This document shows positions 27,901-46,488 of a stretch of 64,000 bases of DNA, one piece after another (position 1 is the stretch's first letter; the number at the start of each line of letters is the position of its first letter). Source of the DNA: Diabrotica undecimpunctata. Taxonomy: Eukaryota; Arthropoda; Insecta; Coleoptera; Chrysomelidae. Under the pieces are notes generated by a model. That model was not told the origin of the DNA. It did no database searches and saw only the letters and a program-made list of their open reading frames with translations. Location: positions 121,603,411 through 121,667,410 of the forward strand of contig NC_092811.1 in the NCBI RefSeq assembly GCF_040954645.1, read 5' to 3'. The translations under genes and the position numbers were made by a program.

Positions 27901-28740
27901 AATTAAAGATTGAAAATTTTCTGGTGTCTGGACCGGGATCGAACTCTCTTCTGTATTAGTTCCAGTGTTGGTGCAGATTTCCTTTTCTCAATTTTATTTC
28001 CAAAATAAGAAATACGAGTTCAAAGTGATCCGATAAATCGACAAAACCTATATTTGATTTTTTATCTACACTATATTTACACTAACTGATAGTTGTCTGT
28101 ATAAATAAAGTCACCCTATCAAAACGTTACATTCAGCTGTTAACATATAATCTAAAAAGTGCATTATAGATATTTGCCGATTAATAATAGCACTCATTTG
28201 AAATTTAATAAAATAATAAACAATTTATGGATATTTCTTTATCATTATCATTTATGTTTCCATTTTTCTTATATTTCGCTATTTTTAGAACTCCAATAAA
28301 TAAAAAAGGAAAGTATTTAAAAAACCAAGATCAAGGGTATATTGGCAACACTGCTCCAACGTGCTCAAAATGCATAATTATAGTGGGAGAGCTTAATGGA
28401 TCAAAAGAACTGAAGTAGCGTTAGAAAATGGTTTCGGTATTTAAAAAGTCAGTTATTAATAAACTACTTAACCAATTATTGCTTAATCGAACAAAACATC
28501 GCAAATGATTACTCCAACACTGAAATAAGCCATTATCACCATTGGCTCTGCAACCCATTTTGCATCTTACAAGGATTATTTGAACACTAATTCATTTTTC
28601 TTTAGGAAATCCAATCTAGTATGTTCATATTATGTTTTGACAGTACCCGTATCAAAAATACACGTTATATATAGTAGAATTAATAGTACCTAGTTTTTAT
28701 TTTAACATAAAGATCGTAACCCTTTATATTAGATGTTATA
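24935..28740. other. Long AT-rich stretch with possible SINE scraps
   Basis: No gene was recognised. GTGGGTTCGAAACTAGC near 25032-25048, and GATCGAACTC near 27937-27946 on the opposite strand, resemble the B box of a tRNA-type pol III promoter, so tRNA-derived SINEs are possible. No A box, TSD or second copy was confirmed. A 63-codon frame at 28227-28418 has no recognisable domain. Confidence 0.35.
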
Positions 28741-29131
28741 TAGATTTAGATTATTATACAACTTTTGAAGATTACAATAGAATGGTGGTTAAATACAATC
28801 GGCGCTTTGCCAACTACACAATATGGTTTTAAAAAAGGTTTTGGCACCATAGATGCGGTGACACACTTAGTTACAGACATACAAATAGGCTTAACTGAAA
28901 ACGAGTATAATGGAACGATGTTTCTAGATGTTAAAGGTGCCTATGACAATGTCAACTGGTTCATCTTACGGGAAAAAATGATGCAATTACGAATCCCTCA
29001 AGAAGTTGCTAACACGATATGCAAATTATATATAAACAGGCAAGTAGGGCTCATAGGACATTATAGATGCCCAGTAAAATACCAAACTGCAAATTTAGGT
29101 TTGCTACAAGGATCAGTCCTTGCACCATCAC

Positions 29132-29137
<6 letters not shown>

Positions 29138-29175
<38 letters not shown>
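29138..29175. repeat. (TA)n tract, left border of array
   Basis: About 19 TA units run from the RT codons for NIY directly into the first 362-bp unit. Confidence 0.95.
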
Positions 29176-29179
<4 letters not shown>

Positions 29180-29211
29180 GTAAAAGATTGCATTTCATTT
29201 CAATCGGAACT

Positions 29212-29269
29212 CCACCATTGCTCTACACGTGTTTCGAGTTATTCAACTCATCATCAGGAGCACTTGTGG
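29212..29269 (-). ncRNA. Type I hammerhead ribozyme, unit 1
   Basis: Minus strand: stem I outer CCAC/GUGG (4 bp), a 3x3 internal loop, then UGCUC/GAGCA (5 bp). Core CUGAUGA; extra U; stem II GAGUU/AACUC with a GAAU loop; GAA. Stem III ACACGUGU is self-complementary and minimal. The predicted cleavage follows the A of GUA, between plus positions 29224 and 29223. The internal loop in stem I opposite the stem II loop is where natural type I ribozymes make their tertiary contact. Only the U after CUGAUGA departs from consensus. Confidence 0.82.
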
Positions 29270-29573
29270 AAGTTCATTTGAAATGAAATGCAGTCTAGTA
29301 TTTGGTTATTATAACCAAAATAACAAGCCAGGTACGCTAGCAGCGACATCTATACGAAGTAACAAGAAGTCCAGAGACCTCTCTCTGATAGTAAATTAGG
29401 TGAACCGCAAATTCAAAGCCTCTTACTAGAGACTTTTAACGACGCTAGAAGTACATTTTTACTTCAACATGCATCTGCGATTCACCTTTGAAAATTACTA
29501 TCTTTTTCGCTCTTTACGTAGAGAAAGACGTTTAAATGAAAGTAAAAGATTGCATTTCATTTCAATCGGAACT

Positions 29574-29631
29574 CCACCATTGCTCTACACGTGTTTCGAG
29601 TTATTCAACTCATCATCAGGAGCACTTGTGG
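29574..29631 (-). ncRNA. Type I hammerhead ribozyme, unit 2
   Basis: Same 58-nt fold as unit 1, exactly 362 bp downstream, with an identical core and stems. Confidence 0.82.
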
Positions 29632-29935
29632 AAGTTCAACTGAAATGAAATGCAGTCTAGTATTTGGTTATTATAACCAAAATAACAAGCCAGGTACGCT
29701 AGCAGCGACATCTATACGAAGTAACAAGAAGTCCAGAGACCTCTCTCTGATAGTAAATTAGGTGAACCGCAAATTCAAAGCCTCTTACTAGAGACTTTTA
29801 ACGACGCTAGAAGTACATTTTTACTTCAACATGCATCTGCGATTCACCTTTGAAAATTACTATCTTTTTCGCTCTTTACGTAGAGAAAGACGTTTAAATG
29901 AAAGTAAAAGATTGCATTTCATTTCAATCGGAACT

Positions 29936-29993
29936 CCACCATTGCTCTACACGTGTTTCGAGTTATTCAACTCATCATCAGGAGCACTTGTGG
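29936..29993 (-). ncRNA. Type I hammerhead ribozyme, unit 3
   Basis: Same fold and sequence as unit 2, another 362 bp on. Confidence 0.82.
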
Positions 29994-30297
29994 AAGTTCA
30001 ACTGAAATGAAATGCAGTCTAGTATTTGGTTATTATAACCAAAATAACAAGCCAGGTACGCTAGCAGCGACATCTATACGAAGTAACAAGAAGTCCAGAG
30101 ACCTCTCTCTGATAGTAAATTAGGTGAACCGCAAATTCAAAGCCTCTTACTAGAGACTTTTAACGACGCTAGAAGTACATTTTTACTTCAACATGCATCT
30201 GCGATTCACCTTTGAAAATTACTATCTTTTTCGCTCTTTACGTAGAGAAAGACGTTTAAATGAAAGTAAAAGATTGCATTTCATTTCAATCGGAACT

Positions 30298-30355
30298 CCA
30301 CCATTGCTCTACACGTGTTTCGAGTTATTCAACTCATCATCAGGAGCACTTGTGG
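30298..30355 (-). ncRNA. Type I hammerhead ribozyme, unit 4
   Basis: Same fold in the last, 3'-truncated unit; the ribozyme itself is complete. Confidence 0.82.
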
Positions 30356-30441
30356 AAGTTCAACTGAAATGAAATGCAGTCTAGTATTTGGTTATTATAA
30401 CCAAAATAACAAGCCAGGTACGCTAGCAGCGACATCTATAC

Positions 30442-30533
30442 GAAGTAACAAGAAGTCCAGAGACCTCTCTCTGATAGTAAATTAATAAGTAAATAATTTA
30501 CTATCAGAGAGAGGTCTCTGGACTTCTTGTTAC

Positions 30534-30536
<3 letters not shown>
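30442..30536. repeat. Terminal hairpin of the array
   Basis: The last 43 bp of the array (30442-30484) are repeated in inverted orientation at 30494-30536 around a 9-bp loop, as a near-perfect hairpin that abuts the right (TA)n tract. Confidence 0.9.
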
Positions 30537-30599
<63 letters not shown>

Positions 30600-30600
30600 C
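30537..30600. repeat. (TA)n tract, right border of array
   Basis: About 27 AT units, interrupted near the end (ATACATATAC), after which the LINE RT frame resumes. Confidence 0.95.
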
Positions 30601-31713
30601 TACTAATTTACACACCTCCATATCTAAAGCAACCATTATACAATATGGCGATGATTTTGTTGTTTATACACGTAGTAAACATCTCGACGAATGCATTAAT
30701 CGTTTGAATTCAAGCACGAAACTCGTTTTAAGATCCATAAGTGATTTAGGGTTTCAAATCTCCGCAGAAAAATCCAAAGTTATAATCTTCACCAGGCATA
30801 ACATGAAACCGATGCAAAAAATTACAATAGATGGTATAGAATTTCCGGTGGATACCAATGTCAAATACTTAGGAATCACATTAGACAGAAAATTAACCTG
30901 GAAACTTCATATTGAACACATAGAGATTAAAATTTTAAAATCAAACTCAAACACAACTTAATGACATTATTTTTAGCATCCAAGCAATACTCAAACATTT
31001 ACAAGATCAAAATAAATATATAAAATTCTTCTGGGTCAAAGCACACGCAGGAATAACAAACAATGGAATTGCAGATCAAATTGCCAAAGAAAGCATTGTA
31101 ATGGGAGAACAAATAAATTACGAATTAACTACAGACGAACAAATAATCATAGCAAAACAGAGAATGATGAAGAAATGGTCCTATTTATGGCAAGAGTACA
31201 GCTTTACAAACCCAACACGTTACACCATACTTGAAACCAAATTAAGGAGAAAACCTTGGTACAATGAGTATGATTACAGTCGAAAAAGTATAACTACTAT
31301 CAGCAGAATGAAGTTTGGTCACGCATGTTATCCAGCACATTTATATAAAATAAAAATACTTGAGAGTGATCTTTGTGAAGCCTGTAATAAAATCGGTGAC
31401 CTGGACCACATCTTTTTTGATTGTTTAAAATATAGAGCTCAATCTAATGAGCTTTTCAGAAAACTTTTAAAATTAAACTATGAAAGCCCATATAATATAC
31501 TGCATCTTCTTGCTTTAGACAAAAAAGAAATTTACGATTGTTTGCTGTCTTTCGTCAGAACAACGAATATACAAATATAACCACCTTTGTTAATACCTGA
31601 TGTCTTTCCTTAATGTACGTATACCTATCTGTCCGAGGCCTACCTTTTTGTTGTCATTCCGGCTTTCATTTTCTTTTTAATCCAATAAATATAATAAAAT
31701 ACAGAACTTAAAG

Positions 31714-45886: not shown

Positions 45887-46196
45887 TTTAAATAGTGAGT
45901 TATTCTACTAGATTGGGTGTGCAAATGAAAGAGTGTTATGAAGTTTAGGTAAAAAAACAATGGACAGTTTAAATAGTAAAGCAGTTGATTTTTGAGTTTA
46001 TCTACCAGTTTCGGTATACAGATGAAATAGTGTTAATGGAGTTTAGTTAAAAAACAAGATACCGAATGTAAGTTTATGTAAATAGTTTAAATAGTGAAGC
46101 AGTCGATTTTTGAGTTAATCTACCAGTTTCGGTATGCAGATGAAATAGTGTTAATGGAGTTTAGTTAAAAAACAAGATACCGAATGTAAGTTTACC
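45887..46196 (+). repeat. Degenerate tandem repeat in nested element
   Basis: GTTTAAATAGT starts units at 45887 (short, diverged), 45967 and 46085. The last two are 118 bp apart and differ at few positions (ACCAGTTTCGGTATACAGAT against ACCAGTTTCGGTATGCAGAT). Confidence 0.8.
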
Positions 46197-46206
46197 TTCT
46201 TTTTTT

Positions 46207-46488
46207 ATGAATAACAAAAATGAATATTATATTTCAAACAATCCACAATCTGATTCAGAACCTGATTCATTAAAATCAATGATTACAGGGGATATGTGGC
46301 TGGCATCTATTATATCTTATATTTTAATAAAATATGGTTCTAAAAAGAACCGTTTTAATACATATGAATATCTTCTAATTGAAAATAATTTAATAATTTT
46401 AATATTAGGCTTTGTTCTTTCTCGGTATATCTCGGCATATTTAAAATATTTTTATGACAATAAATACAAAATTAAATTTTCACTGTAA
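46207..46488 (+). other. Unrecognised 93-codon frame with hydrophobic segments
   Basis: ATG at 46207 to stop at 46486-46488. A polar start (NNPQSDSEPDS) is followed by two hydrophobic stretches (about residues 32-43 and 60-75: LIILILGFVLS) and a basic tail, so it could be a small membrane protein. It begins just after the tandem repeat in the nested element. In AT-rich DNA a frame of this size can arise by chance. No family recognised. Confidence 0.3.

Follow-up and report, generated by a model that had tools for sequence, protein, structure and literature searches.

The 362-bp hammerhead-bearing repeat of the beetle Diabrotica undecimpunctata enters the genome, in most of the insertions that we read, as two tandem arrays that face one another, with outer ends that fall at two recurrent places in the unit. 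From the DNA of this one genome, on which the reading rests, we consider it probable (roughly two chances in three) that a Penelope-like enzyme cuts AT-rich DNA and that both of the resulting 3′ ends prime reverse transcription on the ribozyme-bearing RNA, which is probably a circle. The insertions provide a footprint for the entry of retrozymes into a genome, namely starts from both target ends at two sites, each mostly serving once (37 insertions, 34 end pairs). As the ribozyme shows which strand was the RNA, it also makes it easier to tell two-ended priming apart from self-priming with antisense RNA as template, a question left open for the inverted repeats of Penelope in the accessible text of PMC3846280. 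No description of a paired-end rule, or of inverted or twin-primed insertions, for retrozymes was found in the open-licence papers searched.

The array in the window and its hammerheads

Positions 29176–30484 of the window, the whole stretch of 64,000 nucleotides analysed, are occupied by a tandem array of 362-bp units whose minus strand carries four hammerhead motifs; Tandem Repeats Finder gives a period of 362, 3.6 copies and a 99% match over 29174–30484. The array interrupts a LINE reverse-transcriptase frame on the plus strand, the upstream part of which lies at 28750–29137 (open reading frame list and genomic LINE matches) and the downstream part at 30600–30961 (open reading frame list; uninterrupted in sibling copies). 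Reading from the left, a (TA)19 border (29138–29175) adjoins site A, where the plus-strand left arm begins (GAAAGTAAAAG), and the arm runs through unit 1 (29176–29537), unit 2 (29538–29899), unit 3 (29900–30261) and a partial unit 4 of 223 nt (30262–30484), the putative end of the first cDNA. Unit 3 repeats unit 2 without change and the partial copy has no differences, so the three exact periods and a partial copy described in the earlier note are nearly right, unit 1 being off from both of the others by two bases. Beyond a 9-nt spacer at the centre junction (30485–30493) lies a right arm of 43 nt (30494–30536), inverted and on the minus strand, whose outward end is site B (GAAGTAACAAG in the minus-strand reading) and adjoins a (TA)n right border (30537–30599). 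The two TA borders, both of which Tandem Repeats Finder recovers, and the terminal hairpin of the earlier note are thus real, the hairpin being an inverted copy of unit sequence (the inverted-repeat call, 30494–30544, takes in TA beyond the right arm). Their proposal as the undescribed part of the element holds up with a different meaning: the hairpin is best read as the short second arm of a two-ended insertion, and the borders look like places where the target DNA primed reverse transcription.

To describe the ribozyme we used a descriptor (CUGANGA, zero or one extra base, stem II of at least 4 bp, GAAA, stem III of at least 2 bp, UH, stem I of 4 bp) that was written after the sequence had been seen and that tolerates the extra base present in all four motifs. 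Applied to the 64 kb, it picks out four sites, each within the array and on its minus strand, at 29205–29278, 29567–29640, 29929–30002 and 30291–30364 (base before the cut at 29224, 29586, 29948 and 30310); 60 dinucleotide-shuffled versions of the window yielded none on either strand. This agrees with the four minus-strand type I hammerheads claimed before. Each copy has the core CUGAUGA, GAAA and GUA, a stem II of five pairs with loop GAAU and a stem III that is minimal, as had been claimed, with two pairs and the loop ACGU. Stem I, drawn by hand, has an inner part of 5 bp and an outer part of 9 bp with one bulge, and in the computed fold it is prolonged by a long helix. The Rfam hammerhead search that had been suggested as a check gave no match at the gathering score in the whole window, and none at E up to 10 in 28600–31200; in the minimum-energy fold of the 74-nt motif stem I forms and the centre differs from hammerhead stems II and III. 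The loop of stem III (ACGU in ACACGUGU) is self-complementary, and a dimeric ribozyme is therefore possible.

The compensation ascribed to stem I is a fit within one sequence. Among 149 copies of the 74-nt motif in the loci read, 109 are identical and 25 differ at the extra base alone; no compensatory change was seen among them, the copies being too alike for testing it, and their near-identity shows youth and apparent intactness, not covariation. The extra base, between A9 and stem II, is U in all four motifs of the window and in most copies elsewhere, and because one subfamily has C there it seems, as this suggests, to be free to vary. A viroid hammerhead with an extra core nucleotide is the subject of a title cited in PMC4918200. 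The subfamily with C, at unit position 73, is made up of L028, L030/L031, L033 and L035. Exact hammerhead patterns had no matches in collections of genome contigs and viral contigs.

The RNA of the unit pairs strongly with itself (z −8.1 for the ribozyme strand, and z −7.0, also strong, for the other). According to the open reading frame list of the window the array contains no frame of at least 120 aa, no transposase frame and no frame joining a reverse transcriptase to a GIY-YIG domain. The window also encodes an ALG14 protein, 100% identical to the ALG14 of Diabrotica undecimpunctata. Some miRNA-type Rfam matches at about 30432–30546 fall on the palindromic junction below gathering scores and were set aside; the one Rfam match of the window over its gathering score is a histone 3′ UTR stem-loop at 46311–46356 on the minus strand, close to a 118-bp tandem repeat (1.9 copies, 96% match) at 45966–46194.

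Insertions across the genome

A genome count of the unit, the BLAST-type check that had been proposed, reported 197 matches (best 40 of 1140 candidate places scored). Around the matches listed we fetched 38 stretches, which with the window give 37 insertions, because a later element has divided one insertion into L024 and L025 and another into L030 and L031. Among the loci read, full-length units on many contigs are 97.8–100% identical to those of the window. A forward array on the left and a reverse array on the right make up 28 of the 37 insertions, the others being forward only (4, among them L045, which has a right arm of about ten bases), reverse only (4) or the opposite way round (1). 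In both arms of the 28 loci the inward reading is that of cDNA of the ribozyme strand.

The outer edges repeatedly fall at the same two sites, which read (TA)nTGAAAGTAAAAG for A and (TA)n[C/T]GAAGTAACAAG for B. One A end and one B end, each adjoining (TA)n, are found in 26 of the 37 insertions, the window included with A on the left and B on the right; 9 have only one of the sites and 2 have neither, and none of the 37 read is A/A or B/B. For two loci (L030 and L038) the other end begins elsewhere in the unit, likewise against TA. The left and right flanks of loci differ. The arms themselves, 65 in all, hold from 0.14 to about 11 units, and their ends cluster, with 102 pairs within 3 nt compared to a mean of 33 and a maximum of 65 in 2000 uniform draws, a figure to be read with the 7 of 59 ends that lie at U362, the cut point of the linear query.

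The pairing of the two ends can be followed beyond the loci read. Exact end patterns occur 171 times (A) and 148 times (B) genome-wide, and the reversed control patterns not once. On contigs C1–C5, with 100 A and 74 B ends among the matches listed (A ends as far as C5:157.8 Mb, B ends beyond), taking convergent neighbours within 12 kb as pairs yields 34 pairs, of which 32 are A/B (20 A-then-B and 12 B-then-A), two A/A and none B/B; not one of 100,000 label shuffles reached 32 mixed pairs. Exact partners are missing for 106 of these 174 ends, owing to mutation, truncation, another start site or other causes. The two A/A insertions lie at C2:100298873–100299817 and C3:62308439–62309201. That A is the primary site would fit the presence of A/A pairs with B/B unseen.

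At the target, the LINE stretch has 40 genomic matches (best 40 of 100 candidates scored), 39 of them besides the window, and all 14 of these 39 that were fetched lack the insert and have a short AT run at the site; L053 has a deletion beside the insertion site and L051 one slightly downstream. The TA borders are longer, 38 bases on the left and 63 on the right in the window, with a median of 53 at site A (28 ends, range 13–118) and of 61 at site B (25 ends, range 28–86). Since the siblings have short AT runs and the borders are long, the extra TA either arrived with or after the insertion, or the LINE copy of the window was already expanded. Target-site duplications of metazoan non-LTR retrozymes, when present, are longer than 4 bp (PMC7229834, accessible text); here the target lies in TA repeats and a duplication is therefore unreadable. 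Of the 362 positions of the unit, site B ranks first for pairing with a TA primer and site A 38th, a poor pairing by which A may be set by protein instead.

The place where two arms meet is particular to each locus. From 29 junction rows we dropped L030 and one row, the first, of L040 as artefacts of the internal palindrome of the unit, and the 27 usable junctions all differ from one another; five are nearly symmetric (the window at 221/221, L018, L019, L023 and L032) and 22 are not. Variants found in one arm of a locus tend to be present in the other arm too: the arms differ by 0.40%, compared to an average of 1.14% for shuffled partners, and none of 20,000 shuffles came as low. No difference over the bases compared (51 only, in the window) is seen in 17 of the 28 two-armed loci, the other 11 differing, and in 9 of the 28 the arm of another locus matches better, most strongly for L013 (all 27 others) and L038 (23). 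The best reading is that the arms are separate syntheses from one template per locus.

Some arrays have themselves been inserted into. A non-LTR retrotransposon with gag-like zinc-knuckle and reverse-transcriptase frames, which we take to be Jockey-like, split two arrays at the same unit position, U107 (L024:3907–5601 with L025:1–1587, and L030:3031–5001 with L031:1–1547; in the latter it is flanked by an 11-base duplication), the common position being due either to a site preference or to chance. About 595 bases interrupt the inverted arm of L015 (3697–4291) with unit bases 210–219 on both sides, a repeat that would look like a target-site duplication.

Routes of insertion

A route by which these insertions might arise can be sketched with the help of published systems. 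Minus-strand transcripts of an array would be cut at the hammerhead to 362-nt monomers, which would close to circles as in known retrozymes, and a Penelope-like reverse transcriptase with a GIY-YIG endonuclease would cut both strands of AT-rich DNA, as the anole element does in vitro. To judge from the genomic footprint, both free 3′ ends, tipped with TA repeats, would then prime reverse transcription, with site A as the start for one of them and site B for the other; each cDNA would extend inward, often across several units, and the two cDNA 3′ ends would be joined at a place specific to the locus, either over a short overlap or with a few bases added. Such two-ended target-primed reverse transcription accounts for the strand of the arms, the recurrent outer ends and the variable middle. 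Counting against this reading are the 11 insertions without the pair of A and B, the ends that have no exact partner, the loci whose arms differ or are matched better by the arm of another locus, the nearly symmetric junctions, the poor pairing of site A with TA, the lack of similarity between the unit and the stretches with Penelope-like elements, and the absence of the hammerhead from the Rfam results. Because A and B are used once each, we infer that a single RNA most likely serves both ends as template, or else two RNAs bound by one enzyme dimer. A more specific form, which we offer tentatively and at somewhat less than even odds, is that retrozymes normally insert by two-ended priming on a single circular ribozyme RNA of 362 nt, with a dimeric Penelope-like ribonucleoprotein seating the chromosome ends at two reserved, opposite sites and paired rolling-circle cDNAs meeting head to head.

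The template itself, which by analogy is probably a circle, might instead be the uncut tandem transcript, an alternative that differs from our reading in this point alone and that we regard as possible but rather doubtful. In vitro the protein of the anole element uses uncut RNA, and ribozyme mutants leave insertion unchanged (PMC11167929, accessible text). The arms also cross the hammerhead cut site, as the 149 motif copies show, which an uncut multimer permits as well as a circle does. On the other hand, most retrozyme monomers in the animals tested are circles, according to the accessible text of PMC7229834, and the use of A and B once each would be easier to explain with one 362-nt circle than with an RNA that has many such sites. 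A further departure has only one target end priming, the inverted arm arising by self-priming or template jumping of the first cDNA. The idea is not new: in the Penelopes of rotifers the inverted pLTRs stand head to head and one of them bears a tail, an arrangement explained in the accessible text of PMC3846280 by self-priming on antisense RNA, and the five nearly symmetric junctions, that of the window included, are such as snap-back synthesis would give. The 22 asymmetric junctions are not, and the outer ends are fixed against (TA)n, one at A and one at B, where snap-back would end anywhere; with the ribozyme marking the RNA strand, moreover, an antisense template is needless. We therefore disfavour this explanation and consider it unlikely.

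The remaining alternatives do without priming at the target. A foldback DNA transposon carrying ribozyme repeats in its inverted arms and inserting at TA would explain the arms and the position beside TA of their similar outer ends, with GAA-GTAA common to A and B, yet cut-and-paste copies share one interior, and here both the number of units per arm and the junction vary from copy to copy; with no transposase in the array by the open reading frame list of the window, such an origin appears very improbable. Palindromic reads are a known sequencing artefact, and the inverted arrays could in principle have been assembled from chimeric foldback reads. Such a read would mirror one end, whereas the two arms stop at different sites, the loci have unlike flanks on their two sides, and the flanks in the window continue one LINE frame, so that an assembly artefact is more improbable still. 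The 362-bp units in tandem are also what an ordinary satellite array would have, grown in place by unequal exchange with inversions later. The absence of the insert from all 14 sibling LINE copies looked at (of 39) and the near-identity of full-length units on many contigs both speak against it, and the outer ends recurring genome-wide exclude it as a general origin; we give it almost no weight.

Relation to retrozymes and Penelope-like elements

Judged by its sequence, the array is young and belongs to the known metazoan non-LTR retrozymes, with a LINE reverse-transcriptase frame as its site of insertion. The retrozyme-like class proposed at first sight was well chosen, as unit size, GC, self-pairing, tandem layout and near-identical copies all indicate. 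Retrozyme units are of about 170–400 bp with GC below 45%, and here they are of 362 bp with 37.3%; a hammerhead is present in each unit by the descriptor, though Rfam is negative and the minimum-energy centre differs. For the class as a whole, a lack of coding capacity and of LTR, PBS and PPT is characteristic, as is expression in the form of linear and circular monomer RNA. The type I hammerhead, the 170–400 nt unit, the tandem copies, the low GC and the strongly self-paired RNA are all likenesses to the elements of PMC7229834. Compared to these, the inverted double arrays with two fixed outer ends are a feature of this beetle, the words ‘inverted’, ‘opposite’ and ‘head-to-head’ being absent from the accessible main text of that paper. 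The same text left the route of genome entry open and named Penelope-like elements strong candidates; as helpers they are put forward in papers on retrozymes. It also covers the satellite hammerhead repeats of newts, which resemble ours in their units of about 330 bp and short stem III, and in its accessible parts inverted arms are not mentioned for them.

For the style of insertion the closest likeness is to endonuclease-bearing Penelope-like elements, which have direct and inverted repeats, head to head, at AT-rich targets, and whose two start sites leave one of the inverted ends with a ‘tail’ (PMC3846280 and PMC11167929, accessible text). In vitro the protein of the anole element cleaves and extends both strands, with reverse transcription starting at two internal sites of the RNA (PMC11167929, accessible text). 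The same arrangement of direct and head-to-head inverted repeats at AT-rich targets is seen at 28 of our 37 loci, as a matter of insertion style and not of membership: the array encodes no reverse transcriptase with a GIY-YIG endonuclease, which separate Penelope-like elements of this genome have. The retrozyme differs from them in apparently encoding no protein and in its unit of 362 nt, and also in the position of its start sites, which lie on opposite sides of the unit and not some 30–40 nt apart.

In twin priming of LINE-1 both target ends prime on one RNA and an inversion results. The likeness would lie in the two target ends, the one RNA and the inversion; twin priming is a side product with a loose second start, whereas for the retrozyme here the inverted form is the commonest and has two recurrent start sites.

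Candidate sources of the enzyme are present in the genome. A search for the GIY-YIG domain gave 73 matches (best 150 of 6687 candidates scored), and three frames of Penelope-like elements have both reverse-transcriptase and GIY-YIG domains, two of them with a reverse-transcriptase score below the Pfam cut-off. Downstream of the domain, 18 of 24 stretches with such elements have a TA repeat at least seven units long. In one of these elements (L061) the two ends form an inverted repeat of 520 bp, and another (L063) has one long and one short end. Searching with the 3′ end of L061 gave 43 matches at 39 loci (best 40 of 1549 candidates scored), four of which have an inverted partner with 3′ ends outward. 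For three of the four, one end reaches query position 381 and the other 343, a difference of 38 nt, the remaining locus being L061 itself with two long ends; as a rough control, none of the LINE search matches listed has an inverted neighbour within 5 kb. The unit shows no BLAST similarity at E up to 1 to the 24 stretches, and the likely link between these elements and the retrozyme rests on their shared insertion anatomy. AAGTA stands just inside (TA)n at the long ends of two families of these Penelope-like elements (AAAGTAGT) and at sites A and B alike, a likeness noticed post hoc.
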